Positions 18,001-36,037 of a stretch of 64,000 nt of DNA are shown here, one piece after another. The position numbers were made by a program, and so were the translations under genes. The stretch's first letter is position 1, and the number at the start of each line of letters is the position of its first letter. The stretch spans positions 1-64,000 of the forward strand of contig NZ_MRBY01000001.1 of the NCBI RefSeq assembly GCF_001904615.1, given 5' to 3'. Under the pieces are notes generated by a model. That model was given only the letters and a program-made list of their open reading frames with translations, ran no database searches and was not told the DNA's origin. The stretch is from [Limnothrix rosea] IAM M-220. Lineage in GTDB: Bacteria > Cyanobacteriota > Cyanobacteriia > Cyanobacteriales > MRBY01.

Positions 18001-18883
18001 ACACGTTCAGGACAATGCCGAAGCTGCCGTAAAAAAGATTATCCCGACCCTGAAAAATGGTGAATTTAGCTTGGAGCTGGATGGTGGCGATCGCCTATCC
18101 GTCTCTATTCAAATCGATCATAAACAAGAAAAAATCACCGTTGATTTTACGGGCACTTCTCCCCAATCAGAGACAAATTTCAATGCCCCGAAAGCTGTTA
18201 CCCAAGCGGCGGTTTTGTACGTTTTTCGCACCCTTGTCCAAGACAATATTCCGTTAAATTACGGCTGTCTTAAACCCATTAAGGTAATTGTCCCTGAAGG
18301 CTGTTTACTAAATCCCGTTTACCCCGCGGCGGTCGTGGCGGGCAATGTGGAAATTTCTCAAAACATTACCGATTGTCTTTATGGCGCGTTAGGGGTTTTA
18401 GCCGCATCCCAAGGCACGATGAACAATTTTACCTTTGGCAATGAAAAGTACCAATATTACGAAACCATTTGCGGGGGATCAGGTGCAGGGCAAGGCTTTC
18501 ACGGCACAGACGCTGTGCAAACCCATATGACCAATTCCCGACTCACTGATCCTGAAGTGCTCGAATGGCGTTTCCCTGTGCTTTTGGAAGAATTTTCGAT
18601 TCGTAAAAATAGTGGTGGCAAAGGCAAATTTCACGGTGGTGATGGAGTGAGTCGTCGCCTACAATTCCGTGAACCGATGACTGCAGCCATTTTATCCAGC
18701 CGCCGTAAAATCCAGTCCTTTGGCTTAAACGGCGGTAATTCAGCAAAAACTGGTGAAAATAAATTAATTCGCGCGGATGGTACAGAATCTCAATTAGATT
18801 CAACCGTTGAAGTGGAAATGAAAAGCGGCGATCGCCTAGAAATTAGAACACCCGGCGGTGGCGGTTACGGTAAGCCTGATTAG
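15071..18883 (+). CDS. 5-oxoprolinase, HyuA-HyuB fusion
   Basis: 1270-residue ATP-dependent 5-oxo-L-proline amidohydrolase, which reopens pyroglutamate to glutamate. The HyuA half (about 1-690) starts with [14 protein letters not shown] and has the actin-like ATPase motif [17 protein letters not shown] near residue 340 and [13 protein letters not shown] near 505. The HyuB half (about 755-1270) has [23 protein letters not shown], a [13 protein letters not shown] metal-type His motif, and a Gly-rich end [17 protein letters not shown]-like. Three stretches are foreign to the family: a 69-base tandem repeat near residues 240-290, a low-complexity segment near 738-752 ([15 protein letters not shown]) and [11 protein letters not shown] near 862. 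All keep the frame. The stop overlaps the convergent J-domain gene by four bases. Confidence 0.93.
15787..15955. repeat. 69-base tandem repeat inside the 5-oxoprolinase gene
   Basis: Two full units and a partial third, with AAAGGGGG at 15796, 15865 and 15934, so the period is exactly 69 bases (23 codons). Each unit carries the hairpin-forming core CCCCCTT-x-AAAGGGGG followed by GATTTAGGGGGATT, a dispersed cyanobacterial repeat, and a unique segment encoding [14 protein letters not shown]. Because 69 is divisible by three the frame survives. Confidence 0.9.
17268..17312. repeat. Low-complexity AGTTATCAG/ATATCAG repeat at the HyuA-HyuB junction
   Basis: Short direct repeats GTGAACA (x2), GTTATCA (x2) and GATATCA (x2) follow one another exactly where the two halves of the 5-oxoprolinase are joined. 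This kind of sequence is common between cyanobacterial genes and here forms part of the interdomain linker. Confidence 0.75.
17651..17683. repeat. Single copy of the CCCCCTTT/AAAGGGGG dispersed repeat
   Basis: The core CCCCCTTTCAAAGGGGG plus GATTTAGGGGGATT recurs here in the HyuB half of the same gene, encoding [11 protein letters not shown]. It is in the same orientation and reading frame as the tandem copies 1.8 kb upstream. Confidence 0.85.
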
Positions 18884-20412
18884 ATGCCTTTTGCGCCGGA
18901 AATATTAGTTTCGATGTCAACGTAAGCAAAATAAAACTTTGTGCCAGTCAGATCCGCGTCCCGTAAATTTGTGCCGAGCAAACTCGTGTTAGCGATCGCC
19001 GCATTTGCCAAACTACAACCTCCTAAATCGGCGTGGTCAAATTTTGTGTTTTGCAGCTTGGCATCACTAAAATTCGACTTACAAAGATTGACCCCAATCA
19101 ACGTTGCACAGGATAAATCAGAACCCGCAAAATCAATCCCGACATGATGATAAGAATAACTTTTGCCAGAGGCGATATTACTGCCGTTGAGGTTTGTGCC
19201 GACCAACTGTGCTTGGGTAAAAGTTGTCCCCTGCAAATTGGCGTTGGTCAGTTCAGCTCGACCGAGATCCGCTCCAGAAAAATCGGTATCACTCAAATTG
19301 GCATTTTCCCAATGGGCATTGGCTAAAGTGACTTCGGTAAAAACACTTTTTTTCGCCTTCGTATTGGTCAAAATCGCGCCAGAAAAATCAGCTTTGTGAC
19401 AGTGAGTATCGTCAAGATTTCCCTCGAGCCATTGCACCTGCTTTAGACTTGCCGCACAAAAAATCGCCTGCTGTGCATTAGCGTGATTTAATGTCGCTTT
19501 ATCAAATTTTGCCTCGGAAAAATCACTCCCTTTAAAGCTGCCGTCAATCCACTGCACGCTATCGAGATTTGCCCCAATAAAACTGGCCTGATCGGCGATC
19601 GCCCCCGACAGATCCGCCTCCGACAAATCCGCCCCATCAAGGTTCGACCCCGTAAGCTGCACACCCGCCAACTTTGCCTTGTGGAGTTTTACCCCCTGTA
19701 AATTCGTCTCACTCAAATCCGCACCACTGAGATCAACGCCACTTAGATCCGGCACATAGGTTTCACATTGGCGAAATAAATTCCATGCTCGAATACCCGC
19801 CTCTCCAGCTTGTAATAGCCGTACTGCTCGCGCCGTTGTAATCGTCTCTTCGTTAGTCGTCGTCGTGTAATGGGGTTGCTCGGCTGCTGCCGTTGTTTTT
19901 CGATGTTGTAAAAGTGCTAGATCAGCTTCGATCTGTGCTCGCAACTCACGGGAATGGACAACAGCTAATGCCTGCTTTAAATAGGTTTCGACAAGGGATA
20001 GATCCTGCACTTCGACGGATTCGGACAAGGCAACAGCCAGCGCATATTGCACCTCTGCAAGAATATCGCCACATTCACTGTCTTCTGGAAACAACCCATA
20101 CAAATTTTTGGCGATCGCCACCGCCTGCTCCAGTTCCCCCAAATCACAAAAATAATCAATCTCCCTAATCAATGCCTGACGGCGATCGTCATTCAGAGAA
20201 TCGTCATAAACCTCCCGTTGAGACGGCTCAGACAGAATTTCGTAGATCAGATTAAGCTCTTTCAACCTTTCCTCAGCCAACTGACGTAGAGATTGTGCCG
20301 TGTCACCACTGAGTTTATCTGGATGAATTTCTATGGCTTTTTTGCGATATGCCTGCTTAATTTCTTTCTGGGTCGCACTAACCGGAACCCCTAAAATCTC
20401 ATAATAGTTCAC
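18880..20412 (-). CDS. J-domain protein with pentapeptide repeats
   Basis: About 510 residues. A DnaJ J-domain occupies roughly 2-70 ([17 protein letters not shown], with the Hsp70-stimulating HPD in [12 protein letters not shown]). A helical linker follows (residues 75-210, [20 protein letters not shown]). From about 220 to 500 come many pentapeptide repeats of the A(D/N)LxG form ([17 protein letters not shown]), which fold as a right-handed quadrilateral helix. I place the start at GTG 20412 because it overlaps the upstream VWA stop as GTGA and begins the J-domain directly; the longer frame to 20448 adds residues with no homology expected. Likely a targeting co-chaperone for DnaK; the client is unknown. 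Confidence 0.85.
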
Positions 20413-21197
20413 GGCAATAACCCTTCCCCTGAGCCAGAACCCAGACAATTTAATAAACTTTTTTTCGATGTCGTCAATTGCTGCGATCGCCGTAGTTGCT
20501 CATGAAACGTCATCAGCAAACCCACTTCCCCCATACAAATCCCAATCAACAAATCCACCAAATCATTAATATGAGCCAAGTTCAGGTAAACACCACCCGT
20601 TTCCCGTGCCATCTCCCGGAAAACCCGTTCCGTATCCCGATGCCGACCACACTGAATCGCATAAAGCTTAATGCCCTTACGCTTCAAAACCTGAACCTCT
20701 TGCCGCCAAAAATGCCCATATTTACAATTTTTTACCGAATCAATCACACCATGGGGCGGTGCATCCCCAATCAGGGCGATCGCCCGCCTACTCCCCAGCC
20801 GCCAATCCATCTGATTTGCCCGAAACAAAGCCTCCTCAATGGCCTCAGGAAAATCACCACCATCCGTTTTTTTAGTGCCCAGAAGAAACCGAGAAACCTG
20901 ACTAATATCCGCAGTAAAATCCAAACCCCTTGTCACGTAGGTAGTCCTTGCATCACAATAGTCCCCGTAGGCTAAGACCCCTACCCTTGACTTCGGAATG
21001 TAATCCCGAATCACCTGCGACAAGTGAGATATCTCACCGCGTACCCGTTCCAAAAAACGGTACATACTACCCGTCGTATCAAAACAAAACAAAATATCTA
21101 GAGATGCCACCCGAGATAATGTCGGAACAATTTCATCCCCTAGTTTGCCATTAGCGCAATAACGCATCACATTATGACTTCGGCGTAAGTAGGACAT
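20409..21197 (-). CDS. von Willebrand factor A domain protein
   Basis: About 262 residues, almost entirely one VWA domain. The metal-ion-dependent adhesion site is visible as [16 protein letters not shown] (D-x-T-G-S variant), then a [13 protein letters not shown] loop and [12 protein letters not shown]. No signal peptide or membrane helix, so it should act in the cytoplasm. The frame begins at TTG 21209; ATG 21197 is preferred. The stop overlaps the J-domain/pentapeptide gene start in GTGA, implying that the two proteins are made together and probably interact. Cytoplasmic VWA proteins often assemble complexes with AAA ATPases or chaperones. Confidence 0.85.
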
Positions 21198-21608
21198 TGC
21201 ATACCCCAAGCCCTAAACCTCAACACATAGATGTCTTACCTAGAGCAGTGAATTTCCCTTAACCATATCTCAAAAAAAAACAGAAAAAGCACAATTTACA
21301 CTTCATAACCTTTGGCTAAATCTTGACAAGTGATCATACCCAAGCCAAGCCTTTCACCATTGTTAGTTGATTACCAAATCAAAGACCCAAAATCTTTGCT
21401 TATTCTTAGATAAATATTTTCCTAGATAAGCTTAGAAATTGACCCTAGAAAGACTTTATTAGGCTTTCGAAAACACGAAATACATGATCGACAGTTATCA
21501 AGACATTAACTCACCGCGATGCACCCGAATAATCCCTAAGCCAGACCCCTCAGATTTGATTTAAAACCCTAAGAAATACAACAACAATATAACCTTGATT
21601 TCGATGTC

Positions 21609-22037
21609 ATGAGTTGGGACAGTACTAGAAAAAAACGCTCACCCAGCACATCCCTTGAGCCCGCCGTCTCTACCCAAATCAGAAACCAGTACTTCGACAA
21701 ACAAATATGTTTGCGGTTGATTAGAGCTGAGCGCCTCAGCGATGTTGAAAAAATGGCCAGCTTCTTAATTAAAGACCGCATAGCTCAAACGCAACATCTA
21801 TATACACTATGACCCAATCTATCCAATCACATACAGCCTTTTCTCCAATGCTTTAGCCGAAAGCTTGACACTATTGCAAATGCCCAAACTAGTTGTGAGG
21901 CCGCAGAATTTTGGGACAAAACCAGTCTCAAAAATATCTTAGATGACAGACAAGCCGATTTTTTTTTGAAAGCTTTGATCGTTTTTTCGTTGAAATGGGA
22001 ATCCTATATCATCATAAAACAATACGTACGTAGATGA
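21609..22037 (+). pseudogene. Possible decayed gene with one in-frame TGA
   Basis: From ATG 21609 a 67-codon frame ends at TGA 21810-21812; the same frame then stays open for 74 more codons to TGA 22035. The joined reading has charged, helix-like segments (LRLIRAERLSDVEKMASFL; EFWDKTSLKNILDDRQADF). No ribosome site is visible and I do not recognise a family. The second open part could be chance in A/T-rich DNA. Confidence 0.25.
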
Positions 22038-22360
22038 TTTATTCTTGGTTTTGGACTTGCAGTTTTGTGGGTTCCATTTACAAAAAACAATGTATTACTT
22101 CAATACCTCATGACCTGCTCCCATACATTTCTCTATTAAGGCCGGGCAAAGTCATGCCTGATTTTTGCAGAAAAAATTCTTTAATTCTTTACTTTGTGAA
22201 GAATCATTTGTCTTTTCGCCGATCATGATTTTATCAGCTACGCAAAAGTGCTTGACTTTTACTGCTTTTTTAAATTCTCCTGTATTGTTAGGTACGTGAG
22301 ATCCGGAGAAGTTGTATTTTTCGTAAAAAAAGCTTTTCCTACTTAAGGAGTTGAGATTTA

Positions 22361-22510
22361 ATGTTTGGTGAATACGTAGAAGCGTAGATTGGGGAAGATG
22401 GATCAAATTATTTTGATCTTGCACTTTCTCAGATAGGTTTTCACCAAATCGTGATTTCTCCTCCCCAAGGACGCTTTTCCTTAACAGTTAACTCCTATCC
22501 AAGAATGTGA
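22361..22510 (+). other. Short leader frame with strong Shine-Dalgarno and in-frame TAG
   Basis: TAAGGAG at 22344-22350 lies 10 bases before ATG 22361, the best ribosome site in this gap. The frame reads MFGEYVEA then TAG at 22385-22387, and continues in phase for 40 codons (with SNYFDLALSQIGFHQIVI and PPQGRFSLTVNSYPRM) to TGA 22508, 12 bases before the start of the first surface-protein gene. It may be a leader peptide, a stop-interrupted small gene, or chance. Confidence 0.3.
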
Positions 22511-22522
22511 GGATATAAAATT

Positions 22523-25138
22523 TTGTCTAGTCCCAAGCGATCGCCCAAGTGGTCAAGATCAGTCTCTCCCTTCCTTGTCGCCGGCCTGCTAGTAACGGGG
22601 AACTTCCACTTTATTCCCCAAGTTTTAGCCCTCGGAACAGCGGCTGGCACGCCTATTAACAATAGGGCAACTGCAACTTACGAAGATCCTGATGGTAATG
22701 AGATTGATGCGATCTCCAATACTGTCATTATTACAGTTGCGGAAGTCGCAGGTATTACAGCAGTACCAGATCAAATAGTTGACCGGGATGGTGGCGCTGT
22801 TGAAGCCGGCGATACCCTAGATTTTTCCTTCACTGTTACCAATACTGGTAACGACACAAACCAGATCAGTGTTCCAACAAATGTTGGTACAGAGAATTTT
22901 GACGTAATCCCAGCCGGTAATATTCGCGTTGAATACGATGAAAATGGTAATGGAACGATCGAGTCTGACGAGGTTTACACATTCGATGGGACAGCCTTCT
23001 TAAATCCCAGTAATGTAGATTTTGAAACAGTGGATGTCCCAGCTGACGACGATTTCTTGGTTATCGTCACCGGCACAGTTCCAGCTACTGGCGTTAATTC
23101 TGGAGATCCGGTTTCTGTTACCCTTGGTGATACTCCAACGGTTGGAGACCAAAACGTTGATTTTGACGGCTCTCTTGATACTAATGATTTAGCAACTCTC
23201 CAGACAGATCCTGTGAATGGCCGACGAGAGGCAAGTGCAACTCAAAGTATTCCCTTCGCATCAAGCGTCAATCCTCTCGCATTAGCCAGAGTCGAAAAGA
23301 ACGACACAAACTACGTTGAGGGAGATCTAACGACTTACAGTGACGATCTCATCACTTACGAATTAGATGTTGACGTAGCTGATACTGATCCTAGTAACCT
23401 TTTCCAACCCGGTTCGTTAGCTGGAACCAACATCACCCTTGACGGCGCTACTGCCCAGCGCATTTTAGTTTCAGATGCTATTCCGACGGACACTCAACTT
23501 AGTTCAACTTCCACTACCCTACCTTCTGGATGGAGTGTTGTTTATACAACTGACAGTCCAACCACAGCAGGGAATGAAGCACCGACAGAGGCGCGATGGT
23601 GGACAAGCTTTGGTACAAATATAGGGCAACCAGCAACTCTTGCTGATGTCGCACGTATCGGTTTTATCTTTGATGGTTCTCTTGCCGCAGGATATGATAC
23701 TGCCAATGAAGCGGGTAGCTTAAGTTTTACGGTTCAAGTCACTAGTACTAGTACAGCACCGGGCCTTAATATCTACAACTTGGCTCAATTGCTGGGTATT
23801 ACCCAGGGTGACGATCCTGCCGACCCTAATGACATTGTTTATGATGAGTCTGGTGACGATAACACTAACAACTTTAGTGATGATGGTACACCAACGCCCT
23901 ATGACCCAAATAATGACACTGGGGATCCCGGTACTCCACCAGATGATGATACTGATGACGGTACAAACACTGGTACAGATACAGATCCTGCAGTCGGTGG
24001 TGGTGAACCGAATCGTTTGCCTCTGACAATTATTGCTGCTAACGACACTATCTTGATAGGTCCCGATGGAGCAGCAGGTGCAGTTGGTCCTGATGGAACT
24101 CAAGACACAGATTTTACGAACCAATCTGCCCCATTTACCCCTGTTGATGCAGACAATGATGGAAACTTTGATGCATTTACCCCTCCTGAAATCGTATACA
24201 CGAATACAATTCAAAACCCAGCAACATCGGGCTTTATCGCTGATGCGACCGTTGAACCTGCAGACATTGCTCAATCAGGAGCAGCAGCTGGTGATATCCC
24301 CACAGGTACTATTGTTCGGATTACTAATGGTGTAAATACTGCTTTTTATGAGTATCAAGCCGATGGGACATGGAGTGCACCTGGTACCACTCCTGACTTC
24401 ACGGGTGGTAATCCTGACAATCCCGGAATTCCAGTTATTTTTGATGACCAGCTAACAGCACAGGAAACGCAGCAGGTTACAGTGGGGGTTCAATTCCCTG
24501 AACTGTCTAGTGCAGACGACATTCCAGTCAATGAGTTACCTAGTTATCCGATTACTTTAATCGTATTTCCTGAGGATGATCCTACAAATCCTGGATTTGA
24601 TAACGAAGTTACTTCTAACTTAACAATTGATCGTGCATACCCTGCAGGCTACGTCGAACTTTTGAAAGAAGCACGAATTCTAGATTCTACAGGTGCCCAA
24701 GTTTTTCCTGCTGCTACTGGCACATATGCAGAAGATGGTTTCCCGGCTCTTGAGATTGGTCAAGTCATTGAGTATAGAATTACTTATACCAATATTTCTG
24801 AAGGCAATGGCGTGGGTACTAGCAATGGCCTCTTGCCAGCGACAAACTTCTTTATCTCTGAGGATGGGACAACGGCCCCAAACAATTGGGCGCTTGATAA
24901 TGATGCTAATGGAACAGTGGATACCCTTCATCAGAATGGTGCGACTCGTACTGATGGAGACATCTACTACTACAGCAGTGCCACTGATACTAATTTCACT
25001 GGTTTTGACCCCACTGCACCATCCGGCTCTACAACCGATCCAGCTGATGATTTAACGGTGCAAGGTTATATCAACCTTGTGGGTGATGTAAACCCTCAGG
25101 ATAGCGGTTCATTTACCTTCCAACGTGAACTTCAGTAA
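22523..25138 (+). CDS. Secreted DUF11-like surface protein
   Basis: 871 residues starting at TTG 22523, with GAGG at 22509-22512. An N-terminal signal peptide (PFLVAGLLVTGNFHFIPQ, cleavage near ALG) leads into INNRATATYEDPDGNEIDA, the opening pattern of DUF11-type surface repeats. Several immunoglobulin-like beta domains follow, e.g. GDTLDFSFTVTNTGNDTN, IGQVIEYRITYTN. Between about 440 and 500 is a very Asp/Thr/Pro-rich linker (YDPNNDTGDPGTPPDDDTDD) likely to bind calcium. It ends SGSFTFQRELQ. No transmembrane anchor or LPXTG, so it is released or held by partners. First gene of the surface cluster. Only one HIP1 site, in the signal-peptide region. Confidence 0.8.
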   Translation: MSSPKRSPKWSRSVSPFLVAGLLVTGNFHFIPQVLALGTAAGTPINNRATATYEDPDGNEIDAISNTVIITVAEVAGITAVPDQIVDRDGGAVEAGDTLDFSFTVTNTGNDTNQISVPTNVGTENFDVIPAGNIRVEYDENGNGTIESDEVYTFDGTAFLNPSNVDFETVDVPADDDFLVIVTGTVPATGVNSGDPVSVTLGDTPTVGDQNVDFDGSLDTNDLATLQTDPVNGRREASATQSIPFASSVNPLALARVEKNDTNYVEGDLTTYSDDLITYELDVDVADTDPSNLFQPGSLAGTNITLDGATAQRILVSDAIPTDTQLSSTSTTLPSGWSVVYTTDSPTTAGNEAPTEARWWTSFGTNIGQPATLADVARIGFIFDGSLAAGYDTANEAGSLSFTVQVTSTSTAPGLNIYNLAQLLGITQGDDPADPNDIVYDESGDDNTNNFSDDGTPTPYDPNNDTGDPGTPPDDDTDDGTNTGTDTDPAVGGGEPNRLPLTIIAANDTILIGPDGAAGAVGPDGTQDTDFTNQSAPFTPVDADNDGNFDAFTPPEIVYTNTIQNPATSGFIADATVEPADIAQSGAAAGDIPTGTIVRITNGVNTAFYEYQADGTWSAPGTTPDFTGGNPDNPGIPVIFDDQLTAQETQQVTVGVQFPELSSADDIPVNELPSYPITLIVFPEDDPTNPGFDNEVTSNLTIDRAYPAGYVELLKEARILDSTGAQVFPAATGTYAEDGFPALEIGQVIEYRITYTNISEGNGVGTSNGLLPATNFFISEDGTTAPNNWALDNDANGTVDTLHQNGATRTDGDIYYYSSATDTNFTGFDPTAPSGSTTDPADDLTVQGYINLVGDVNPQDSGSFTFQRELQ

Positions 25139-25329
25139 CCGATCAAGAATAATTTAGTGTTGCTTTTTAGTTTTGAATAAGTAGTTGGAGCTATTAAATC
25201 AGCACTAGATTTTCCTCTGGGGAAAGTTGAAAGTAATTTTGGCTTCCCCTTCCGACTTACTTTGTGAATACAGACATTAAAGTTTGGTTTTGTTTTCTAG
25301 CAAAACTTCTGATGAGAGAGGATTTATCT

Positions 25330-25896
25330 ATGACTAAACGCTCTTCCCTAATTGCTTTGGGTGTTGGCTTGGCTATCGCTGCTAGTTTTGCGCCAGTCAA
25401 TATCCCACAATTATCATCCCAGCCGGCGATCGCCCAAACGCAGGAGCAAAGTCTTGAGTTGGCGCTTGTTGGCGAGCTGAAAGTGACTCGAACAAACTGG
25501 CGTGGGCAACAAGAGGTTGCTTGGCGAAATCTAGAAGGTGGATTTTTCCGAGGGGCTCCGACTGTCCGCCCTGGTGACATTATTCGGTATACGGTCAGTG
25601 GCAACAATCGTACGGAACAGCCGATTTCTGGTTTAGTCCTCACTGATGATTTACCAGCAAATATGGTTTATGTCATGGACTCTGCTGTTTCTGTGGGTGG
25701 TGCAACCATTACCTACAGCATTGATGGCGGCAAAACATATACGGCTAATCCGACAATTCAGGTCAGACTACCTGATGGCACTTTCGAAACACGTCCGGCT
25801 CCTGCTGAGCGCTATACCCATGTCCGCTGGACATTTCGATCGGCAGTCCCAGCAAAGGGAAGTGTGAATGGCCAGTATCAAGTTCGTGTTCAGTAA
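25330..25896 (+). CDS. Small secreted DUF11-domain protein
   Basis: 188 residues from ATG 25330, chosen because GAGAGG at 25315-25320 gives good spacing; the frame is open to GTG 25264. Signal peptide residues 1-35 (SLIALGVGLAIAASFAPV ... AIAQ). The mature part is one DUF11-like domain: VRPGDIIRYTVSGNNRTEQP, GLVLTDDLPANMVYVMDSA, VRWTFRSAVPAKGSV, ending GQYQVRVQ. This is a single repeat unit of the kind found many times in the neighbours, so it could be the pilin-like or capping subunit of a surface fibre. It lies between the 871- and 508-residue proteins on the same strand. Confidence 0.8.
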   Translation: MTKRSSLIALGVGLAIAASFAPVNIPQLSSQPAIAQTQEQSLELALVGELKVTRTNWRGQQEVAWRNLEGGFFRGAPTVRPGDIIRYTVSGNNRTEQPISGLVLTDDLPANMVYVMDSAVSVGGATITYSIDGGKTYTANPTIQVRLPDGTFETRPAPAERYTHVRWTFRSAVPAKGSVNGQYQVRVQ

Positions 25897-25986
25897 AAAA
25901 ACAAGACCTTATTTTTTGAAATAAGTTAGCCGCTGCATCTACATTTTTCTCCTATTCTTTCTCCACACCCAAAATATATCTAAGCA

Positions 25987-27513
25987 ATGAGAACATTTCT
26001 CCCGCAAAGTTTGCACTGGTTAAGGCGATCGCCCCGCGTGGTTGTTATGGCTAGTTTGATTTTGGGTTTTCTTCCCAATGCAGCCTTTGCCCAAATCGAA
26101 GAAGGCAATAGTATTTCATTATCGAATACAGCGCAGGCCTCTTATCAAGGGATTAATAATCCTACTGTCATCAATATTCTGAGTAATCAAGTTGATATTG
26201 ATTCCGATGCAAGGGCTCTCATTGACCCAACAGGTCTCATTGTTGATTGTGAGGGCGTGCCTTTTGATAGCTATGCTGGTTTTTCTGTTGCTTTATTTAA
26301 TGCCGCTGGATCGACGGGAGCTGAACTGGGCTCTTTGGTAAATCTGCCAAGTGTGTCACCGGCGGATCTTGCGAATAGCACCATTGTTAATGTGAACCCA
26401 AGCAATGATAATCCTTTTGATGTTGGCATAACGGATAGCCTGGATGAAAATCTGCGAGGACGCTTTAATTTCCTCTTGTCTCCGGAACAAATTCAACCCG
26501 ATGATGCGTATATTCTCGTTATTCAGCCGCCGCCAGATTTGCTAGTGGATGAGCGCCGAATTCGTATTGCTGATTTTCAACTGACTGGTGGGGTGGGGTC
26601 AGAGCAATTGACTTATCGAGCTATTTCCTTGGATGGATTGCCTCTTAGTGTGGAAGATTCTGTCCCTATTGCGAAGGAAATTGTTGTGCCTCAGGGGCAG
26701 CAAAATGCGATTTTCTTGACTACTGCGGTCACACCACTGTGCCAAAGTCAGGCCATTCGCATTCGCAAGACGGCGGATAGGGTGACAACGCAACCTGGTA
26801 GTTTTGTGGTTTATCAGATTACGATTGAAAATCTGAGTACTTCAACTCTGGAGAATGTTACTGTCAATGATCGTTTACCTCGTGGTTTTTCGCTGTTAGA
26901 GGATTCGGTACAGGCTCAGATTGGTGATAATTCTACGCCGATTACAACGGTTGTTAATGGCCGTAGTGTTAGTTTTGAGTTTCAAGAGGGTTTACCGGGT
27001 AATGCTGATCCCAGTAATAATCCTGTGGCTAGGATTGCCTATGTCACGGAAGTGAATCCTGATGCTTTGCGGGGTGATGGTCGAAATGTTGCTTTAGCGT
27101 CTGGCGATCGCACGGACAATAGTTTTGTGGCGAATGATGGGCCGGCGATTTTCGAGGTAGATATTCGAGAAGATTTGTTGTCTGATCTCGGCACAATTAT
27201 TGGGCGGGTATTTGTCGATAAAAATTTTGATGGGGAGCAGCAGTTTGGTGAGCCGGGTGTTCCTAATGCTGTGGTTTTTATGGAAAACGGCAACCGGATC
27301 GTGACGGATAAAGATGGTCTTTTTTCTGTTGCGAATGTTTATCCCGGTTGGCACACTGGTGCATTGGATCTAACGAGTGTTCCGGGTTATACCTTAGCCC
27401 CGAATCCCTACATTTTGAGGAAAGAAAGTCAAAGTCAGGCGGTTCGTGTGGAGCCGGGTGGTCTGGCTCGATTAAATTTTGCGGTCACTCCAGTAGTTGA
27501 GGGGGCACGCTAA
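25987..27513 (+). CDS. Secreted protein with DUF11 and SdrD_B-like domains
   Basis: 508 residues. Signal peptide (VVVMASLILGFLPNAAFA, about residues 18-36); an N-terminal region beginning SISLSNTAQASYQGINN like the 871-residue neighbour; a DUF11 domain near 255-390 (IRIRKTADRVTTQPGSFVVY, LENVTVNDRLPRGFSLLED); then an SdrD_B/Cna_B-like domain near 401-505 (GRVFVDKNFDGEQQFGEPG, GLFSVANVYPGWHTGALDL). These domains occur in surface adhesins. The TAA stop shares its last base with the ATG of the next gene (TAATG), so the barrel protein is translated by coupling to it. Confidence 0.85.
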   Translation: MRTFLPQSLHWLRRSPRVVVMASLILGFLPNAAFAQIEEGNSISLSNTAQASYQGINNPTVINILSNQVDIDSDARALIDPTGLIVDCEGVPFDSYAGFSVALFNAAGSTGAELGSLVNLPSVSPADLANSTIVNVNPSNDNPFDVGITDSLDENLRGRFNFLLSPEQIQPDDAYILVIQPPPDLLVDERRIRIADFQLTGGVGSEQLTYRAISLDGLPLSVEDSVPIAKEIVVPQGQQNAIFLTTAVTPLCQSQAIRIRKTADRVTTQPGSFVVYQITIENLSTSTLENVTVNDRLPRGFSLLEDSVQAQIGDNSTPITTVVNGRSVSFEFQEGLPGNADPSNNPVARIAYVTEVNPDALRGDGRNVALASGDRTDNSFVANDGPAIFEVDIREDLLSDLGTIIGRVFVDKNFDGEQQFGEPGVPNAVVFMENGNRIVTDKDGLFSVANVYPGWHTGALDLTSVPGYTLAPNPYILRKESQSQAVRVEPGGLARLNFAVTPVVEGAR

Positions 27514-30500
27514 TGCAGTCATTATCTACTTCTACTTTATTAACTGCGCTCATTGTTCCGGGTCTGGTTACGCCTGCTGTTGCTATTCCTGTTGCGTCAA
27601 ATTCAGAGTTTTTACCATCGCCGCTGCTATTTGCCCAGGTGGAGAGTCGGGTTGAAGATGGTTCTGTTGCTGATACTGATGGTGTGAGTGCTGTAAAAAT
27701 TCTGAGTCCTACGATGGGCGCAGTACTGAAGAGTAATTCATCTGCGGTTGTGATTGAGGCTCCCATTGGTAGCCAGGTGACGTTACAGGTTAATGGTCGT
27801 CCTATTGATGCGAATCAGGTGGGTCAGTTACAGACTGATTCTGCTCAGGGTATTGTTCGTCAGACTTGGTTTGGTGTGATTTTTAAGGATGGTGATAATA
27901 TCCTGACGGCGATCGCCACAAAAGATGGCGAGACAACCACCGATGAAATTACACTCCAAGCACCCGGGATGATCGCTGATTTAAGGCTCACTACAGTCGA
28001 ACAGCGAGTACCTGCAGACGGTCGTTCTACGGTTACAGTTCAGGGTTTTTTATTAGACGATAATGGGAATATTTCCAATCGTGGTGGACTAATTACTTTA
28101 GTCTCGTCCTCTGGAGAATTTGTGGGGGTGGATGCCGAGCCTGATGCTGAAGGCTTTCAGGTAGATGCGAAGGATGGTCAATTTGAGGCAACGCTCCAAT
28201 CTTCTTTAGAAAGTGGCACTGTTCAGATTCGGGCTGATTTGCTGGGTTTAGAAGCTTTTACTCAGGTGCAGTTTGAGACGGCATTACGTCCGAGTTTGTT
28301 GACGGGTGTCATTGATGTGCGTATCGGTGCTGAGAATACTAATTATTACGGTAGCTTTAGTGAGTTTCTCGATCCGGACTCTGATGGCAAAACGGTCATT
28401 GATGTTGATGGTGCGGCCTTTGCTATTGGGGCAGTTGGTGATTGGCTGCTAACTGCTGCCTTTAATGGCGATCGCCCCCTCAATGAAGCCTGTGAAACCT
28501 GCACAAACCGCTTGTACCGCGCTGATCAAAAATCAGAAGAACCTTATCCCACTTATGGTGATGAGTCTACCGTTTCGAATCTCACCCCTTCCCAAGATCA
28601 ACTATTTATCAGATTTGAGCGTTCTCCCGGCATTTTGAATGCCGACCCCGACTACATCATGTGGGGAGACTACAGTACTAGGCGAGAGTTTGCCAATGCC
28701 TCCCAAGAGTTTAGTGCCCTCAGTCGGCAGCTGCATGGTGCAAAGCTTAATTACAACCTTGGTGATCTACAGATTTCCGGCCTTTTCAGTCAGGGAGGCG
28801 AATCTTTCCAGAGAGATACCCTCTTGCCCGATGGCACCACTGGTTTTTACTTCCTGACCCAACGTTTTGTTGTACCGGGTAGTGAAGAAATTTATGTAGA
28901 ACTAGAAGAATTAGAGCGCCCCGGCACTGTACTCCAGCGCGATCGCCTCCAGCGCGGCATTGACTACGACATTGACTATGACCGCGGTAGCGTCGTTTTC
29001 ACGGATCCGATGTTACGGACAGAATTTAGTGACGAAGGGGCGCTGCTTGTCCGCCGCATTGTGGCCAGTTACCAGCACGAAACCGATAGTGACAATAAGC
29101 TCTATGCAGGTCGCTTAAGATATAACTTTAGCCGCGAGACAGGCGCTGAGAGTTGGCTCGGCACAACCTATTTCCACGAAGATAAAGGCGAGCGAGATCT
29201 TGAAGTCTTTGGTGTTGACTCTCAAATTTCCTTTGGCAAAAATTATTTGTTCACAGGTGAGTATGCCCGGAGCACCAACGATTCGACAGAGCTGGGTAAT
29301 GTTTCCGGCTCGGCTTATCGCTTAGATTTTATTGGGCAATTTAGCGACAATATTTCTGGACGTGCTTATTACCGTCACGCCGATACGGAATTTGCCAATG
29401 AATCTACCATTAGCTTTGTTCCCGGGCAGACGCGCTATGGTGCAGAGCTAGATGCCAAAATTTCTAACAGTACTCAGCTACGCTTCAAGTATGATCATGA
29501 AAATAATGACGGCGTTAATATTCGTCCGATTGTCACCCTTGGAGATTTATTAGCTGCTGACGATGAGGCGATCGCCGACGGTTTTGTGGACAACAGCTTA
29601 ACTACGATTTCCGGTGGCTTGCTCCAAAAAATTGGCAAATCTAACCTCACCCTAGACCTGATTTACCGCGATCGCGAAGACCGCATCAACCCAGACAATA
29701 GCGGCAATTCCACACAGCTACGTAGCCGCTTTACCACACCCCTAAGAGACAACTTACGCTTTAGTATCAGTAACGAAACAACCCTCTCAGGTGACACAGA
29801 TGCCGTTTATAACGACAGAACCCAAGTCGGCTTTGACTGGAAAATTCTTTCCGGTGTAAATCTCGGCCTTAAGCAAAACTGGTACACCAGAGGTAGCCTC
29901 GCCGGACAATCAACGACGAGTATTGATCTTGGAGGTCAATATCAACTCTGGAAAAACGCAGTCTTTACTGGGCGCTATCGCTTTGAAAACTTCAGCACTG
30001 GTATCGAAGACAGCCTTGGCTTTGGCATTAGACAGCGCTGGACAGTCTTCCCCGGTTTTCACGTCGATGCAGCCTACGAAAAAGTTGTCGGTAACTTATT
30101 CTTTGGCGGCGATGGTTCCGTGTCCCAAGGCGGTAGTCGCTCCACACGGGTGCGGGATGGCGATAGCTTGAGTCTGCGGGCAAGTTACACCGATAACCCG
30201 AATTTCAAGGCGGAAGCTTTATACGAATGGCGCAATACCAATGGTGGTCAAACCTCTAATGTCTCTGCATCATTGTTGGGTAAAGTTTCGCCCTCTTTAA
30301 CAACTTTATTTAATATTGACCGACGTTTTGCTGCGGGCAAGGCAACCAGAGATTTACCGGCCAGCACAGATATTCGCTTAGGTCTGGCTTACCGTAATCC
30401 CTACAGCGATAAGTTTAATGCCTTAGTGAAATACGAATATCGTCATAATCCTGACACCATTCCCGAAACGCTATTACTGGGAACCGGCAACAGTTTGCGT

Positions 30501-32162
30501 GAACATATCTTTGCTGGCGAGATGATCTATGCGCCCAATTGGCAGTGGGAATTTTATTCAAAACTTGCCTACCGTCACTCCAGTATTGATTTAGCAGATA
30601 ACTTTAGTGCTAGTAGCTCCCTTGGCTTGGCTCAGGTACGGGCAAGGTATCAAATGAATCGTTGGGTGGATTTAACCTTTGGGGGACGTTGGATTCGTCA
30701 GTTTTCTGCTGGTTATGATGAAATGGGTTGGCTCGGAGAAGTGGGTTTTCATCCCACTCCAAATTTAAGGTTGGCTGTGGGGTATAGCTCTGGTGAAATT
30801 AATCAAGACCGCGATTTTGACGGTACACGGGCTGATAGTGGTTTGTATGCGGCGGCAACATTGAAGTTAGATCGGCTCTTTGGTGGGTTTGGTTTACAAG
30901 AGCCTTTGCCTACACCTCAGGTACGTCGTCAGTTGATGGTGGAAAATACTGAAGCTGAAGAAGACATTACATTGCAAGCAGCTTTGCCGTCACAACCTTT
31001 ACGGCTCAATGTTTCCCAAACTATTGAATTTTCGCCTAATGCAACTTCAATGTCTCGTAAGGGACAGGTGGTTTTGGATAGTTTGATTACGGTGATGCAC
31101 CAGTATCCTGATTTAAATATTGATATTCAAGGTGAGTTGCCGCCCCTTGCGGAGTTAACGCCTGACAATATTGAGGCGCAGCGTCTCCAAACTGCTCGTA
31201 AGTATCTCCTCAGCAAAGGTATTCAAGGAAATCGTATTGTTATTCGTTCTCTCGGTCAGATGGCGCGTAATACTGTTCAAGAACAGCGGGAAGACAGACT
31301 TGTTGGTTTTGCGCTCATCGGTTCAGCTGAGACGTTTGAGTTGTTGTCGAGTCAGCTCAGTAGTGAGTTTGTTGGGACGTTGTTAGGTGAAGGTTTGCCT
31401 TCTTTGGCGGCACGTCAGGCTGAACTGGAAGAGAATATTGTCGCGGTTAATCCTGTGGTTTCTGAGGTTGTAGAGCAGGCTTCTACGAATGTCGAAGAAC
31501 CGGAAGGGCTTGAAACAACGGCTGTCGTTCCTCGTAATTTTGATGATGATCCACTTTTTAGTTTTGCGCCTTTGGCTGTGCCGTCTGAAGGGTTGGGTGA
31601 CATTTTGGTTCGAGAAGCAACGTTGGATCGTGAAGCTAGGGACATGCTTTTAGGCGATCGCCGGGTTGATGAAGCTGAAAATATTACTGAAGACTTCTTT
31701 ACGACTGAGGTGAGACCGGAAGAAGAACTAATTTTAGGCGATCGCCGTATTCCCAATGATGAAACAGACTTAACCTTCTTCAATACTGACCAGTGGATGA
31801 ATATGGATATGCTCACCCTGACAAGCGTCAATCTGGATCTCACAGATGGCTTTGCGAATGGTTTGATTTTGTCGCAACTGCCTGAATCTGAAGCGATGAC
31901 CGTGCGAGACTTTAGCTTCTTCACTGATGATCGCGATACCCTTGCTCTTGCTCCTACTGACGTGACTGAAGACACGGTTGCTCAATTGAGTTATCTCGAA
32001 GCGCGTCAACTAGAAAGTGCCTTAAGTTTCCTCTTAGGTCGTGATGTGGAAACCCTCGACACTATTCTGGAGGCCACTGCCCAGCAGCAGGAATTGCGCG
32101 GTGAGGTCATTGACTTTGATCGCCTAATGAACCAGAGCAATGATTTGGGAGGTCAACTATGA
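27513..32162 (+). CDS. Very large outer-membrane beta-barrel protein with OmpA-like domain
   Basis: 1549 residues. A signal peptide (about 1-25) and a low-complexity segment precede two Ig-like/Big domains (about 55-260; ILSPTMGAVLKSNSSAVVIE, DGRSTVTVQGFLLDDNGN). From about 264 to 1120 alternating hydrophobic/polar strands with aromatic ends and Asp/Asn turns (GIDYDIDYDRGSVVFTDP, LDLGGQYQLW-like) indicate a large beta-barrel. An OmpA_C-like domain follows near 1162-1250 (IEFSPNATSMSRKGQVVLDS, ARKYLLSKGIQGNRIVIRSL) and would bind peptidoglycan. The last 300 residues are acidic and of unknown fold. Coupled to the genes on both sides (TAATG before, ATGA after). Probable anchor or export pore of the cluster. 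Confidence 0.8.
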   Translation: MQSLSTSTLLTALIVPGLVTPAVAIPVASNSEFLPSPLLFAQVESRVEDGSVADTDGVSAVKILSPTMGAVLKSNSSAVVIEAPIGSQVTLQVNGRPIDANQVGQLQTDSAQGIVRQTWFGVIFKDGDNILTAIATKDGETTTDEITLQAPGMIADLRLTTVEQRVPADGRSTVTVQGFLLDDNGNISNRGGLITLVSSSGEFVGVDAEPDAEGFQVDAKDGQFEATLQSSLESGTVQIRADLLGLEAFTQVQFETALRPSLLTGVIDVRIGAENTNYYGSFSEFLDPDSDGKTVIDVDGAAFAIGAVGDWLLTAAFNGDRPLNEACETCTNRLYRADQKSEEPYPTYGDESTVSNLTPSQDQLFIRFERSPGILNADPDYIMWGDYSTRREFANASQEFSALSRQLHGAKLNYNLGDLQISGLFSQGGESFQRDTLLPDGTTGFYFLTQRFVVPGSEEIYVELEELERPGTVLQRDRLQRGIDYDIDYDRGSVVFTDPMLRTEFSDEGALLVRRIVASYQHETDSDNKLYAGRLRYNFSRETGAESWLGTTYFHEDKGERDLEVFGVDSQISFGKNYLFTGEYARSTNDSTELGNVSGSAYRLDFIGQFSDNISGRAYYRHADTEFANESTISFVPGQTRYGAELDAKISNSTQLRFKYDHENNDGVNIRPIVTLGDLLAADDEAIADGFVDNSLTTISGGLLQKIGKSNLTLDLIYRDREDRINPDNSGNSTQLRSRFTTPLRDNLRFSISNETTLSGDTDAVYNDRTQVGFDWKILSGVNLGLKQNWYTRGSLAGQSTTSIDLGGQYQLWKNAVFTGRYRFENFSTGIEDSLGFGIRQRWTVFPGFHVDAAYEKVVGNLFFGGDGSVSQGGSRSTRVRDGDSLSLRASYTDNPNFKAEALYEWRNTNGGQTSNVSASLLGKVSPSLTTLFNIDRRFAAGKATRDLPASTDIRLGLAYRNPYSDKFNALVKYEYRHNPDTIPETLLLGTGNSLREHIFAGEMIYAPNWQWEFYSKLAYRHSSIDLADNFSASSSLGLAQVRARYQMNRWVDLTFGGRWIRQFSAGYDEMGWLGEVGFHPTPNLRLAVGYSSGEINQDRDFDGTRADSGLYAAATLKLDRLFGGFGLQEPLPTPQVRRQLMVENTEAEEDITLQAALPSQPLRLNVSQTIEFSPNATSMSRKGQVVLDSLITVMHQYPDLNIDIQGELPPLAELTPDNIEAQRLQTARKYLLSKGIQGNRIVIRSLGQMARNTVQEQREDRLVGFALIGSAETFELLSSQLSSEFVGTLLGEGLPSLAARQAELEENIVAVNPVVSEVVEQASTNVEEPEGLETTAVVPRNFDDDPLFSFAPLAVPSEGLGDILVREATLDREARDMLLGDRRVDEAENITEDFFTTEVRPEEELILGDRRIPNDETDLTFFNTDQWMNMDMLTLTSVNLDLTDGFANGLILSQLPESEAMTVRDFSFFTDDRDTLALAPTDVTEDTVAQLSYLEARQLESALSFLLGRDVETLDTILEATAQQQELRGEVIDFDRLMNQSNDLGGQL

Positions 32163-33988
32163 AGCCGATAAAGTTATCCACAGTGCCACAACATTTAATG
32201 TCATTCACCGCAGCTTTGCCATTGTTAATGTGGGGGATGTCTAGTACGAATACCCTTGCTTCTACGACTGAGTATCCAGATGCTGTGTATTCCAATCCCG
32301 ACGAAGTGCCGATGCGGCCTGCCAGTGAAGCAACCTACGCCATTGTGGTGAATAGTGTTGCTGATGGTGAAATTACACCCGATAGCAGTTTGACATTACG
32401 GGAGGCGATCGCCCTCACAAATAACGAGATTTCATTCGCCGAACTATCTGATTTAGAAAAGCAACAAATTCAACCCCAAGCCGACTATTCTTCGATTACT
32501 TTTGATCTAGTTGGGACTCAAACCATTTATCTCCAGAATGAACTTCCGCCATTACGTCAGACGGGCTTAGTTCTTGATGGGAGCCTTAACGGCGATGCGA
32601 AGGTTGTTTTAACCCCAGACCTTGCGGTGATTGCCAGTGCCAATGAGCTTGACGACGATGCCCTTGACGACGAAAACATCTTAAATAACTTTGATGGCGA
32701 CAGCATTGATCGTTACATGCCAGAAGGTGAAAAGCTGAAATATGGTTTGCCGATTGGCTTCTCCGTTATTGCCGATGACATTACCATCAAAGATTTTCAG
32801 TTTTATGGTTTCCACAGCAGCGCTTATAAAGCTTATCCCTTCGTTGGAGCCGTCGTTATTAGTACTGGTCAGATGCTTTATGACCTCTGGCGTTTACCGG
32901 ATATTGTCCAGGTTGAAGCCCCCCAGAACGTGCGGATTGAAAACAATATTTTTGGAATGACTCCAGAGCAATTGCTAGAAACTCAACCTACCCTTAGTTT
33001 TGGCTTGGTGCTTTACGATGCGATCGCCGCGACGGTCACGAATAACGAATTTCTTAACCTCAATGGCAGTGGCATTCTGACGGGAAAAGTCGCCGAATCA
33101 GTCGTCATTGCCGATAATTTATTCTTAGCAAATGGCGGTAACGGTTTACGAGATGCTGTACGTCTCGAAGGCGATATTGCTGGAACTTCTCTGGTAAACA
33201 ACCGCTTTTGCGGTAACAGTGGTGCAGGTATTTTTCTCTTTAAACCAGAAGGGGCGATCGCCGTTAAAAACAATTTATTTGATGGCAACGGCTCGCGCAA
33301 CGAACGAGAATTTGTGCTCACCCATCCCGATGACGGCATCGCCGCAATTTATCTAATGGGTTCAGAACACGAAGTCACAGGCAATACAATTATGAACCAA
33401 GGCGGTTCTGGCGTTGTGGTCGCCGCCTATCCCCGTAGCCAAGGCAATCTCATTACCGACAATATATTTGCCAATTTGCAAGGCTTAAGCATTGATCTCG
33501 CGACCCGCAGAACCATCGATATCCATACCTACCAAGACGGTGATGGCGCAAACCCTTGGCGCGACTCAAAAAACAGGCGCATTGATACAGGCAATGGCGC
33601 GGTTAATGCCCCTCACTTTGCGAATCCAGAATTTTTTCCCTTTGGCCAAGAAGTCGTGATTTCCGGTATTGCCGATCCCAAGGTCACGATTGACTTTTAC
33701 CGTGTCCTTGAGCCCACCTCAGAATTTGGCCCCCTCAATGAATTTCTTACCCAAACGACTACCGATGAAGAAGGACATTTTTCCCTTGCCCTCACCGAAT
33801 GGGAACTGGGCGATCGCCTATCCGCTATTGCCACAGACCCGACATATGGCACATCAGAACCCGCTGAAAATATTGTTATTCGTTCATTCGAGGATACGTC
33901 TCGAGATTTCCCGAAAGCAACTTCCCCTGTAACTACCGCAAAAAAAGTGTGCCATGAATTTGCAATTCTAGATACTGAACCAGAATGA
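32159..33988 (+). CDS. Secreted right-handed beta-helix protein
   Basis: 609 residues whose ATG overlaps the barrel gene stop as ATGA. A signal peptide (LMSFTAALPLLMWGMSSTNT region) precedes a CSLREA-like start (VNSVADGEITPDSSLTLREA) that is typical of extracellular parallel beta-helices. PbH1-type repeats run from about 255 to 445: VRIENNIFGMTP, VTNNEFLNLNGSGILTGK, VVIADNLFLANGGNGLRD, VNNRFCGNSGAGIFLFK. A beta-sandwich follows near 500-575 (VVISGIADPKVTIDFYRV). No catalytic residues of pectate lyases are evident, so an adhesive or glycan-binding role is more likely than lyase activity. Confidence 0.8.
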   Translation: MKPIKLSTVPQHLMSFTAALPLLMWGMSSTNTLASTTEYPDAVYSNPDEVPMRPASEATYAIVVNSVADGEITPDSSLTLREAIALTNNEISFAELSDLEKQQIQPQADYSSITFDLVGTQTIYLQNELPPLRQTGLVLDGSLNGDAKVVLTPDLAVIASANELDDDALDDENILNNFDGDSIDRYMPEGEKLKYGLPIGFSVIADDITIKDFQFYGFHSSAYKAYPFVGAVVISTGQMLYDLWRLPDIVQVEAPQNVRIENNIFGMTPEQLLETQPTLSFGLVLYDAIAATVTNNEFLNLNGSGILTGKVAESVVIADNLFLANGGNGLRDAVRLEGDIAGTSLVNNRFCGNSGAGIFLFKPEGAIAVKNNLFDGNGSRNEREFVLTHPDDGIAAIYLMGSEHEVTGNTIMNQGGSGVVVAAYPRSQGNLITDNIFANLQGLSIDLATRRTIDIHTYQDGDGANPWRDSKNRRIDTGNGAVNAPHFANPEFFPFGQEVVISGIADPKVTIDFYRVLEPTSEFGPLNEFLTQTTTDEEGHFSLALTEWELGDRLSAIATDPTYGTSEPAENIVIRSFEDTSRDFPKATSPVTTAKKVCHEFAILDTEPE

Positions 33989-34093
33989 CAATCTACAAAA
34001 GACAAGAGATAAATTGGGCTATTCCTGAAAAATCTCAAGCCTTGCAGTCATCTATACATTCCATTACACAATGAGCCTCGTCTAGTTAGATTT

Positions 34094-36037
34094 ATGCCAA
34101 CGAATAATCATACTTTACTCACATCTTATTTCCGTAGGTGCTGCCAATGTATGGTCGGCAGTTTAACCTTACTGGTTGCCATCATAGGCGTGCCTAGAAC
34201 AGCAGAAGCAATTGAATCACAAGTATGCTATATCGTTGCTGATACTGGTGGTGGCAATGGAGGGGACGATTTACTTCTAAAAGTTGACTCCGAAGCAACA
34301 CCTCCTCGGAATTTTGTTCAGGTTGGAACTGGCACAGGCACAAACAGTATCGAAGCCGCCGCTGCTCAACCCGGCACTAATCTGCTTTTTGCGGCTGATC
34401 AAGATGGAACAAATAATGGCCGCTTGGGTATTATTGACCTGACTACAGGGGTGTTCACAGCGAGGCCACAAGTCATGGGTTCAGGTGATGGCGCTAGAGA
34501 CACTATTACATTTAGAGACCCAGATGGCCTCACTTTTGATCCCGCTAGCGGCACTTTATATGCCAGTATCCGTATCGGTGACTCATCTGCGCCTCCTGAC
34601 GTTCTTATTCAACTTGATCCCGTCACAGGCGCTCATATCCCCGGTGCTTTTGGGACTGACATTAACGGCAACCCGATTGATTACATTGAAATTGAAGTTC
34701 AAGGTGGTCGAAATGACATTGATGGTATTGCCTTTGCCCCCAGTGTCGTTCTCGGTGGAGCCCAACCAAATACTCTTTATGGTGTTGCTAACCAAGGTGC
34801 CGGCGATCCTCAAATTTTAGTTGAGATTGATCCAACTACAGGTAATACAACAATTGTGGGTAATATTCCGCTCCCGGATGTTGAAGACCTTGCCTTTGAT
34901 ATTCCGGGACAACTCTATGCCTCTACTGGCCGCGATGGCAAACTATTTGATCTAAGCATTTCTGGTTCCACTATTTCAGCAGAGGAGGGTCTAACACCGG
35001 GAATTGGTCGGGACTACGAGAGTTCAGGATGTTATCTTGAGCCGCCTGTAGACTTGTCCTTATTAAAAGCTGCCGATAACCTTACTCCGAACCAAAATGA
35101 AGTTGTCGAGTTTACACTGACGCTTGCCAATGATCAAACTGATTTTGTTTACCATGATGCCAATGATGTTGAAGTTGAAGATGTTCTACCAACCGGTCTG
35201 ACCTTTGTTGCCTTTACCAATATCCCCTCTGGCTCAACAGCAAGTGAGAATAATGGCACCATCACGTGGAGTGTTGATGAAGTTTTGTTAGGTCAGAGCC
35301 AAGAACTGCGATTTACTGCCAGAGCTACTGGTGTGGGCACAATAATCAACTCAGCTGAAGTTATAGACCTGCGGGAATTTGACCTTGACTCAACGCCCAA
35401 TAATAATCGGCCTAGTGAAGACGATCAAGATTCTGTAACCTTAACGGTGACGACAGCTACAGGGACAAATCCAGAGGTCATTCTGGTGAAGCGAATTACC
35501 GCAATTAATGGAACGCCTACAGTGACTGTTGATCCAAACACCACCCCTGAACTTGAGGATAATGATGCTGAATGGCCTAGTAATTTCCTTGAGGGAGCTG
35601 TCTCTGCGCCTGTGATGCCTAGTGATATTGTCGATTACACGATTTATTTTCTGAATACTGGTGATGGAGCCGCTGAAAACTTGACGATTTGCGATATTTT
35701 GCAATCGGAGTTGACCTTTATTCCGGATGCATATAATGCTTTTAGTGCTGATGCTGATGCTGGTGTCGGAAGTGGGACGGACTTGGGTATTCGTCTTGAT
35801 GATGGTGCTACAACGAAGTATTTATCGGCGCTCTCTCTGGATTCAGACCGAGGTCGCTTTATTGAGCCAGCAACTAATTTAGACCCAGAATGTGATCCAA
35901 CTGACACTTCACCTATTGACTATTCTAATGCTGAAAATACTGTTGTGGTTGATGTGACTGGTAGTGACTCTGGTCAAAATCCCAATATTGCTCCAGGTAC
36001 GGCTGGATTGGTTCGTTTCCGGGTAAGGGTGGATTAG
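34094..36037 (+). CDS. Secreted DUF11-repeat protein with N-terminal propeller-like domain
   Basis: 647 residues. Signal peptide about 17-38 (VGSLTLLVAIIGVPRTAEA). Residues 45-310 look like beta-propeller blades (GRLGIIDLTTGVF, LTFDPASGTLYASIRIG, DGIAFAPSVVLGG, LAFDIPGQLYASTGRDGKL). Two DUF11 domains follow: about 318-450 (VDLSLLKAADNLTPNQNEVV) and about 462-640 (ILVKRITAINGTPTV). It ends GTAGLVRFRVRVD. No HIP1 site anywhere in the gene. It lies 105 bases after the beta-helix gene, so it may have its own promoter or be the last gene of the operon. Confidence 0.8.
   Translation: MPTNNHTLLTSYFRRCCQCMVGSLTLLVAIIGVPRTAEAIESQVCYIVADTGGGNGGDDLLLKVDSEATPPRNFVQVGTGTGTNSIEAAAAQPGTNLLFAADQDGTNNGRLGIIDLTTGVFTARPQVMGSGDGARDTITFRDPDGLTFDPASGTLYASIRIGDSSAPPDVLIQLDPVTGAHIPGAFGTDINGNPIDYIEIEVQGGRNDIDGIAFAPSVVLGGAQPNTLYGVANQGAGDPQILVEIDPTTGNTTIVGNIPLPDVEDLAFDIPGQLYASTGRDGKLFDLSISGSTISAEEGLTPGIGRDYESSGCYLEPPVDLSLLKAADNLTPNQNEVVEFTLTLANDQTDFVYHDANDVEVEDVLPTGLTFVAFTNIPSGSTASENNGTITWSVDEVLLGQSQELRFTARATGVGTIINSAEVIDLREFDLDSTPNNNRPSEDDQDSVTLTVTTATGTNPEVILVKRITAINGTPTVTVDPNTTPELEDNDAEWPSNFLEGAVSAPVMPSDIVDYTIYFLNTGDGAAENLTICDILQSELTFIPDAYNAFSADADAGVGSGTDLGIRLDDGATTKYLSALSLDSDRGRFIEPATNLDPECDPTDTSPIDYSNAENTVVVDVTGSDSGQNPNIAPGTAGLVRFRVRVD

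Follow-up and report, generated by a model that had tools for sequence, protein, structure and literature searches.

A conserved operon with apparently split CLIPPER domains and a predicted large outer-membrane barrel as a candidate surface-fibre assembly system

A six-gene locus in Limnothrix rosea

The cyanobacterium Limnothrix rosea IAM M-220 encodes, one after another, six secreted proteins that a first-pass annotation took for a candidate surface-assembly system. Do these proteins belong together and, if so, how might they be joined and held at the cell surface? We analysed the locus within a window of 64,000 nucleotides (contig NZ_MRBY01000001.1, positions 1 to 64,000). As had been claimed, all six open reading frames, here A to F, lie in a row on the forward strand with no other gene between them (Table 1); the true start of B is the ATG at 25330. 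Three junctions had been described as tight; two of them are overlaps, TAATG between C and D and ATGA between D and E, whereas the others are gaps of 191 (A/B), 90 (B/C) and 105 bp (E/F). Signal peptides at the N-termini of the operon proteins were judged by eye.

The operon is flanked in the window by unrelated housekeeping or envelope genes. At 18880-21209, the gene for a DnaJ-pentapeptide-repeat fusion protein overlaps that for a VWA-domain protein. A 1.3-kb stretch (21210-22522, 37% GC) separates the VWA gene from gene A; it has no open reading frame of 100 aa and no Rfam match, and is probably the control region of the operon. Promoter and terminator scans returned sites no commoner than in shuffled sequences.

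DUF11 has been renamed CLIPPER, an isopeptide domain in which a catalytic Asp assists the bond between a Lys and an Asn further along the chain (PMC12617251). By profile match, C, F and B belong to this family: in Pfam scans, C matched DUF11 (E 9e-10) in addition to a weak SdrD_B hit and F matched two DUF11 domains (E 4e-20), while B, a single DUF11-type repeat, passed only NCBIfam TIGR01451 (1.6e-8). Protein A was assigned to DUF7925 (E 8e-52) without a significant Pfam DUF11 match, and only the motif marks its terminal domain as CLIPPER-like, the match to the CLIPPER profile being weak (45%). The same domain scan described D as Invasin_D3/Big_1-like Ig domains plus a weak OmpA-like part, and E as a beta-helix.

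Table 1. Features of the operon (positions in the window; residue numbers refer to the respective protein)
Feature	Coordinates	Strand	Description
Gene A	22523..25138	+	871 aa; secreted multi-domain protein; putative donor motif at mature N-terminus, putative acceptor domain at C-terminus; DUF7925 254-451
A donor motif (putative)	22634..22738	+	GTPINNRATATYED...SNTVIITV; I45, N47, A49, Y53
A terminal CLIPPER-like domain without last strand	24644..25135	+	K715, E780/D781; ends FTFQRELQ-stop
Gene B	25330..25896	+	188 aa; single CLIPPER-like domain ending at same strand as A/F, without isopeptide residues
Gene C	25987..27513	+	508 aa; putative N-terminal donor motif, CLIPPER domain, SdrD_B-like domain; putative partner of D
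C donor motif (putative)	26098..26202	+	SISLSNTAQASYQG; L45, N47, A49, Y53
Gene D	27513..32162	+	1549 aa; predicted outer-membrane barrel platform
D two N-terminal Ig-like domains (Invasin_D3/Big_1-like)	27696..28280	+	Domain scan, model, structure matches
D predicted barrel	28296..30872	+	About 38-40 long antiparallel strands; AlphaFold model
D small beta-domain, early barrel insert	28803..29027	+	DYxIDYDRG region; plug-like; predicted secondary structure; invariant residues
D degenerate OmpA-like domain	30987..31295	+	GHTD -> GELP, Arg kept
D C-terminal tail	31296..32159	+	About 290 aa; homologous in relatives of same genus
Gene E	32159..33988	+	609 aa; right-handed beta-helix protein
Gene F	34094..36037	+	647 aa; variable N-terminal part, CLIPPER stalk, conserved putative acceptor domain; candidate distal adhesin
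F internal complete CLIPPER domain	35051..35410	+	K325, D363, N419 in GTIINSAEV
F acceptor domain (putative)	35465..36034	+	K466, D534; ends LVRFRVRVD-stop without Asn strand

The gene set is conserved across three phyla

Relatives of D were found in 32 of 60 relatives and, with weak fragments counted, in 47 of 386 genomes of the phylum. We read the neighbourhoods at about 120 loci (29 + 80 + 15), the 80 being the best loci of a scan of genome contigs, all of them cyanobacterial. Most of these loci are of one of two types: type I reads A-B-C-D(-E)-F and type II C(short)-D-E-F. The flanks vary, and such conservation of gene order amid unrelated flanks far exceeds chance. Co-occurrence tells the same story. 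Full-length B is present in 39 of the 386 genomes, D accompanying it in 39/39, and the terminal domain of F (E<=1e-10) is present in 43, of which 42 have D; in the lone genome without D, the match is a 183-aa open reading frame. The corresponding hypergeometric p values over 386 genomes, which ignore shared ancestry, are ~2e-48 for B and D and ~1e-52 for F and D. That the neighbours be conserved together in related genomes had been set beforehand as a test of the proposal, and they are. The operon is almost certainly a conserved functional module.

The system had been taken to be cyanobacterial, which proved too narrow. Searches with tblastn against plasmids found the C-D pair in Acinetobacter, Sinorhizobium, Phyllobacterium, Croceibacterium, Deinococcus and Thermus, among others, so that the loci span Cyanobacteriota, Deinococcota and Pseudomonadota. 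The order is B-A-C-D-F in Thermus as well as in a divergent genome from another class of the same phylum (L171), and B-A-C-D-beta-helix in Deinococcus; both Thermus B (E 7e-18) and Deinococcus B (E 8e-14) are homologues of cyanobacterial B. Thermus thermophilus HB8 carries the operon (TTH_RS10905-RS10925), as does Picosynechococcus. Our searches of the literature for DUF11 in connection with cyanobacteria, with Deinococcus, with donor strands or with OmpA had partial coverage, which makes absence weak evidence, and within them the gene set was not described; apparently it is undescribed.

Several further observations concern individual genomes. The genome from which the window is taken has one D and one F domain. 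Two D genes occur in several others (G136, G210, G331, G337, G368, G382, G110 and G247), and the second D, where read, belongs to the short (C-D-E-F) operon type, which suggests two parallel fibres in one genome. In genome G005 (locus L047), the VWA gene and an MscS gene flank the same operon, making the locus syntenic there. At this locus and at L046 (G034), A is split into several open reading frames, as is C in L046, with the frame of D intact; the broken genes are possibly sequencing errors or decaying genes. In Thermus brockianus (L189, 1-5047), carotenoid-biosynthesis genes lie directly upstream of the operon.

D is predicted to be a very large outer-membrane barrel

Whether the central region of D would be predicted as a barrel had likewise been set as a test. 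An AlphaFold model of residues 41-1142, built from an alignment of 27 sequences (pLDDT 74.8, pTM 0.63), depicts a very large beta-barrel, presumably of the outer membrane, its strand number and closure being predicted as well. In this model seven or eight strands precede the small insert. The region is not covered by any barrel family of Pfam or NCBIfam, and membership of D in the SprA family or among ushers by sequence was rejected for want of matches. Structure comparison with PDB returned AlgE, FimD/PapC, Deinococcus SlpA and SprA with Z of about 11-15 and large rmsd, so the modelled likeness is of a general large-barrel sort. For the Ig part, the similarity is to GH2 C-terminal domains and to those of intimin. 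In inverse autotransporters (intimin/invasin), however, an N-terminal 12-strand barrel precedes a C-terminal Ig passenger, whereas in D the Ig domains come before the strands, which places D outside this class. The C-terminal tail, which the first-pass annotation had left out, was matched in same-genus relatives only and has no family match. Both termini of D are expected in the periplasm.

A peptidoglycan-binding tail had also been ascribed to D, and this is not supported for the present genus, in which the domain is degenerate. Pfam OmpA (PF00691) gave no match to D even at E<=1; the OmpA-like part was matched by NCBIfam OmpA-type models (best 2e-6), and residues 1159-1261 by a profile built from relatives (47 bits). 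Of the peptidoglycan-binding residues, the Asp of GHTD is lost and the Arg kept. Elsewhere, the domain is usually a canonical one on E: of 54 E sequences, including some truncated at contig ends, 31 have it at the C-terminus, in canonical form in those inspected. In Acinetobacter, it is a separate Pfam-OmpA protein. Either E or, in this genus, D would bear the OmpA-type domain on the periplasmic side, in contact with the cell wall.

CLIPPER domains appear to be split between neighbouring proteins

Proteins A, B and F end alike. Each stops right after a conserved beta-strand (strand F of the domain), typically FxFQRxVN, YQxQVR or RFRxKV, and no sortase-type LPXTG signal was found; the chains end at the strand without a following signal. 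In the terminal domain of A (84 sequences), the Lys is conserved in 98% and the acid in 90-96% (E96, D90); in that of F (82 sequences), both are conserved in 100%. The terminal domains of A and F hold the Lys and the acid without the Asn strand, so that the Lys-Asp-Asn triad is not complete within either one. Retention of these residues over large divergence suggests that they work. In the F domain, C533/C600 are disulfide candidates.

Protein B is different in that its Lys is present in 88% of relatives and the position of the acid is occupied by Gln (94%); B of the window lacks the Lys. Its AlphaFold model (pLDDT 92.5) is consistent with a CnaA-like fold on comparison with RrgB, antigen I/II and 9IFR, with middling Z up to 8.7; the structural alignment, its register unchecked, was not counted as proof of a missing strand. 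End-points of DUF11 HMM matches are clean only for B, several of them at model positions 90-92, where strand F ends. In A and F they are blurred by long insertions, and there the split is read from the position of the stop codon and the conserved residues. Five CLIPPER proteins from genomes without D, a small sample, do not have such an ending.

The counterpart may be found at the other end of the neighbouring chains. A motif, IxNxAxxxY, is located at the mature N-termini of A and C. It is present in 89 of 94 A proteins (0/94 after shuffling) and 82 of 91 C proteins (1/91), in 1/90 F, and is absent from the N-termini of B and E. The conservation of its residues is I97 N98 A96 Y97 per cent in A and N98 A87 per cent in C; the 98% for Asn in both comes from alignments built without selection for the motif. 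The N-terminal regions of A and C align to each other (hhalign, 96% probability), whereas matches of this short segment to true CLIPPER last strands are weak, 31% for A and 5% for C. Judged by its sequence pattern, the Asn motif resembles the missing CLIPPER strand. Type II operons keep one such donor (C) and one acceptor (F), and the same donor and acceptor ends are seen in Thermus, Deinococcus, Acinetobacter and L171. The new point is this apparent fit of parts: split CLIPPER ends matched by Asn motifs on neighbouring proteins.

Could the locus be an ordinary fibrillar-adhesin cluster, in which CLIPPER stalks are held by D and OmpA domains, each alone and with no joining? Adhesins often contain SdrD_B, beta-helix and Ig domains. 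CLIPPER domains, too, are typical of adhesin stalks (PMC12617251). Yet in such a cluster nothing would call for the chains of three protein families, across three phyla, to stop at one and the same strand, with Asn motifs to match on exactly the other partners. Moreover, Pfam and NCBIfam scans recognised no anchor of their own in A, B or C. We consider this explanation quite improbable.

Variable F proteins and gene fusions

Only the last ~190 residues of F are constant, and its whole length ranges from ~460 to ~2200 aa. Between Thermus (L189, 16377-18878) and a cyanobacterium (L035, 13854-18122), the N-terminal parts of F are 50% identical, the rest of the operon being far more divergent, which suggests at the sequence level that adhesin tips have been swapped between phyla.

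Gene fusions occur as well. One chain of 3550 aa in Phyllobacterium joins an F-type N-terminus (38%, E 9e-54) to C and is followed by D with an ATGA overlap; in Acinetobacter C and D form one chain of 2008 aa. The resulting order, F-C-D, is the order predicted if the C-terminus of F joins the N-terminus of C. In the simplest reading of these sequences, a once continuous chain has been cut within a CLIPPER domain, after its strand F and before its strand G, and the two halves still meet.

The conserved C-terminal domains of A, B and F might instead serve as an export signal read by D, with D acting as a secretion channel like SprA. SprA, the translocon of type 9 secretion, is a very large single-chain barrel of 36 strands, and D, also predicted to be a very large single-chain barrel, is structurally similar to it (Z 11.5, 428 aligned). 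The near-perfect co-occurrence of F with D and the constancy of only the end of F would fit this. However, usher, AlgE and SlpA score at least as high as SprA against D; Pfam/NCBIfam scans at E<=1 gave no match to SprA or a T9SS C-terminal domain in D or the substrates; the PorE match of D (0.0034) is to its OmpA part only; and the operon contains no PorV, gliding or motor genes. Furthermore, the fused F-C protein of Phyllobacterium has D but no such terminal domain, and an export signal leaves unexplained both the Lys and acid kept without Asn and the Asn motif of the A and C N-termini. This alternative is improbable, if a little less so than unjoined adhesins.

A model of donor-strand joining on D

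Taking these findings together, we somewhat favour a reading in which the operon is a surface-fibre assembly and anchoring system, with CLIPPER domains split between chains and joined on D. In this model, D would hold the fibre and probably let it out; C would be the base joining the fibre to D; A, with a donor end and an acceptor end, would be the middle subunit; and F would be the distal adhesin-and-stalk subunit. F or A, ending after strand F and keeping the Lys and Asp/Glu, would receive the Asn-bearing last strand from the mature N-terminus of the next protein (A or C), and an intermolecular Lys-Asn isopeptide bond may lock this donor-strand complementation. B may be a non-covalent assembly chaperone or a capping subunit, and, speculatively, may hold donor strands before assembly. 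The parts of the model differ in strength: a surface fibre on D is very probable, donor-strand joining in the order F-(A)-C, which is suggested by the sequences, is fairly likely, and covalent sealing of the joints is tentative. The first-pass suggestion that the barrel exports or anchors a fibre made of the other proteins fits the fusions and the donor and acceptor ends; export and fibre formation are where it goes beyond them. Speaking against joining are the weak profile matches of the donor motif and of the end of A, the absence of the Lys from B of the window, and the predicted topology of D, whose termini would be periplasmic while C and the fibre would need to reach the outside.

Donor strands might also join the subunits non-covalently, in which case the retained Lys and acid would be structural relics. 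B, which lacks the acid in most species and yet has the same ending, is in line with this, and many CLIPPER domains are without isopeptides (PMC12617251). The retention of Lys (98-100%) and acid (90-100%) in the A and F ends over large divergence suggests, however, that these residues work, and we regard non-covalent joining as rather unlikely.

Comparison with known systems

The proposed scheme recalls chaperone-usher pili. These have an outer-membrane barrel with an early insert, as predicted for D (FimD Z 14.8; PapC rmsd 6.5 over 307 residues), and their subunits have an Ig fold left incomplete at one end together with an N-terminal donor strand, as proposed here; their tip is acceptor only and their base donor only, as proposed for F and C. 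On the other hand, the usher has 24 strands against about 38-40 predicted for D, and the operon subunits, unlike those of chaperone-usher pili, are CLIPPER domains keeping isopeptide residues. Pfam Usher did not match D or 26 relatives at E<=1, and neither a PapD-like chaperone nor a pilin family was matched among the six proteins in Pfam and NCBIfam. By analogy, we infer that the operon would work like chaperone-usher pili without being a member.

For donor strands combined with intermolecular isopeptides, the nearest precedent is found in archaeal threads (Saci_0406, Sulfolobus; PMC9715654). As proposed for the operon, they combine donor-strand complementation with a proposed intermolecular isopeptide bond, and a putative cap subunit has a donor without an acceptor (PMC9715654). 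Their bond, however, links an N-terminal Asp to an Asn two subunits away, unlike the Lys-Asn bond proposed here; there is no outer membrane or barrel, and the proteins are unrelated to those of the operon. CLIPPER adhesins (PDB 9IFR, Acinetobacter silvestris B9T28_05395; PMC12617251) share the family, the Lys-Asp-Asn chemistry and the role of Gram-negative surface stalks. The known ones are complete domains with an intramolecular bond, whereas the terminal domains of the operon would be divided among chains and associated with a dedicated barrel. SpyTag/SpyCatcher is an engineered split CnaB2, in which a strand with one isopeptide residue joins a domain without that residue; the split proposed here is natural and CnaA-like. 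More tentatively, the operon may represent an undescribed class of Gram-negative fibre assembly in Cyanobacteriota, Deinococcota and Pseudomonadota, in which a ~40-strand barrel exports and holds subunits that polymerise covalently, without sortase, via natural split CLIPPER domains.

If true, bacteria with two membranes would have a new means of building surface fibres and anchoring them, and since Thermus thermophilus HB8 and Picosynechococcus carry the operon, the model can be tested in tractable strains. The conserved barrel, with its dedicated partners at the surface, offers a concrete candidate (see also PMC11424642). A natural split isopeptide domain would show sortase-free covalent assembly of Gram-negative fibres and could supply new protein-coupling tags.
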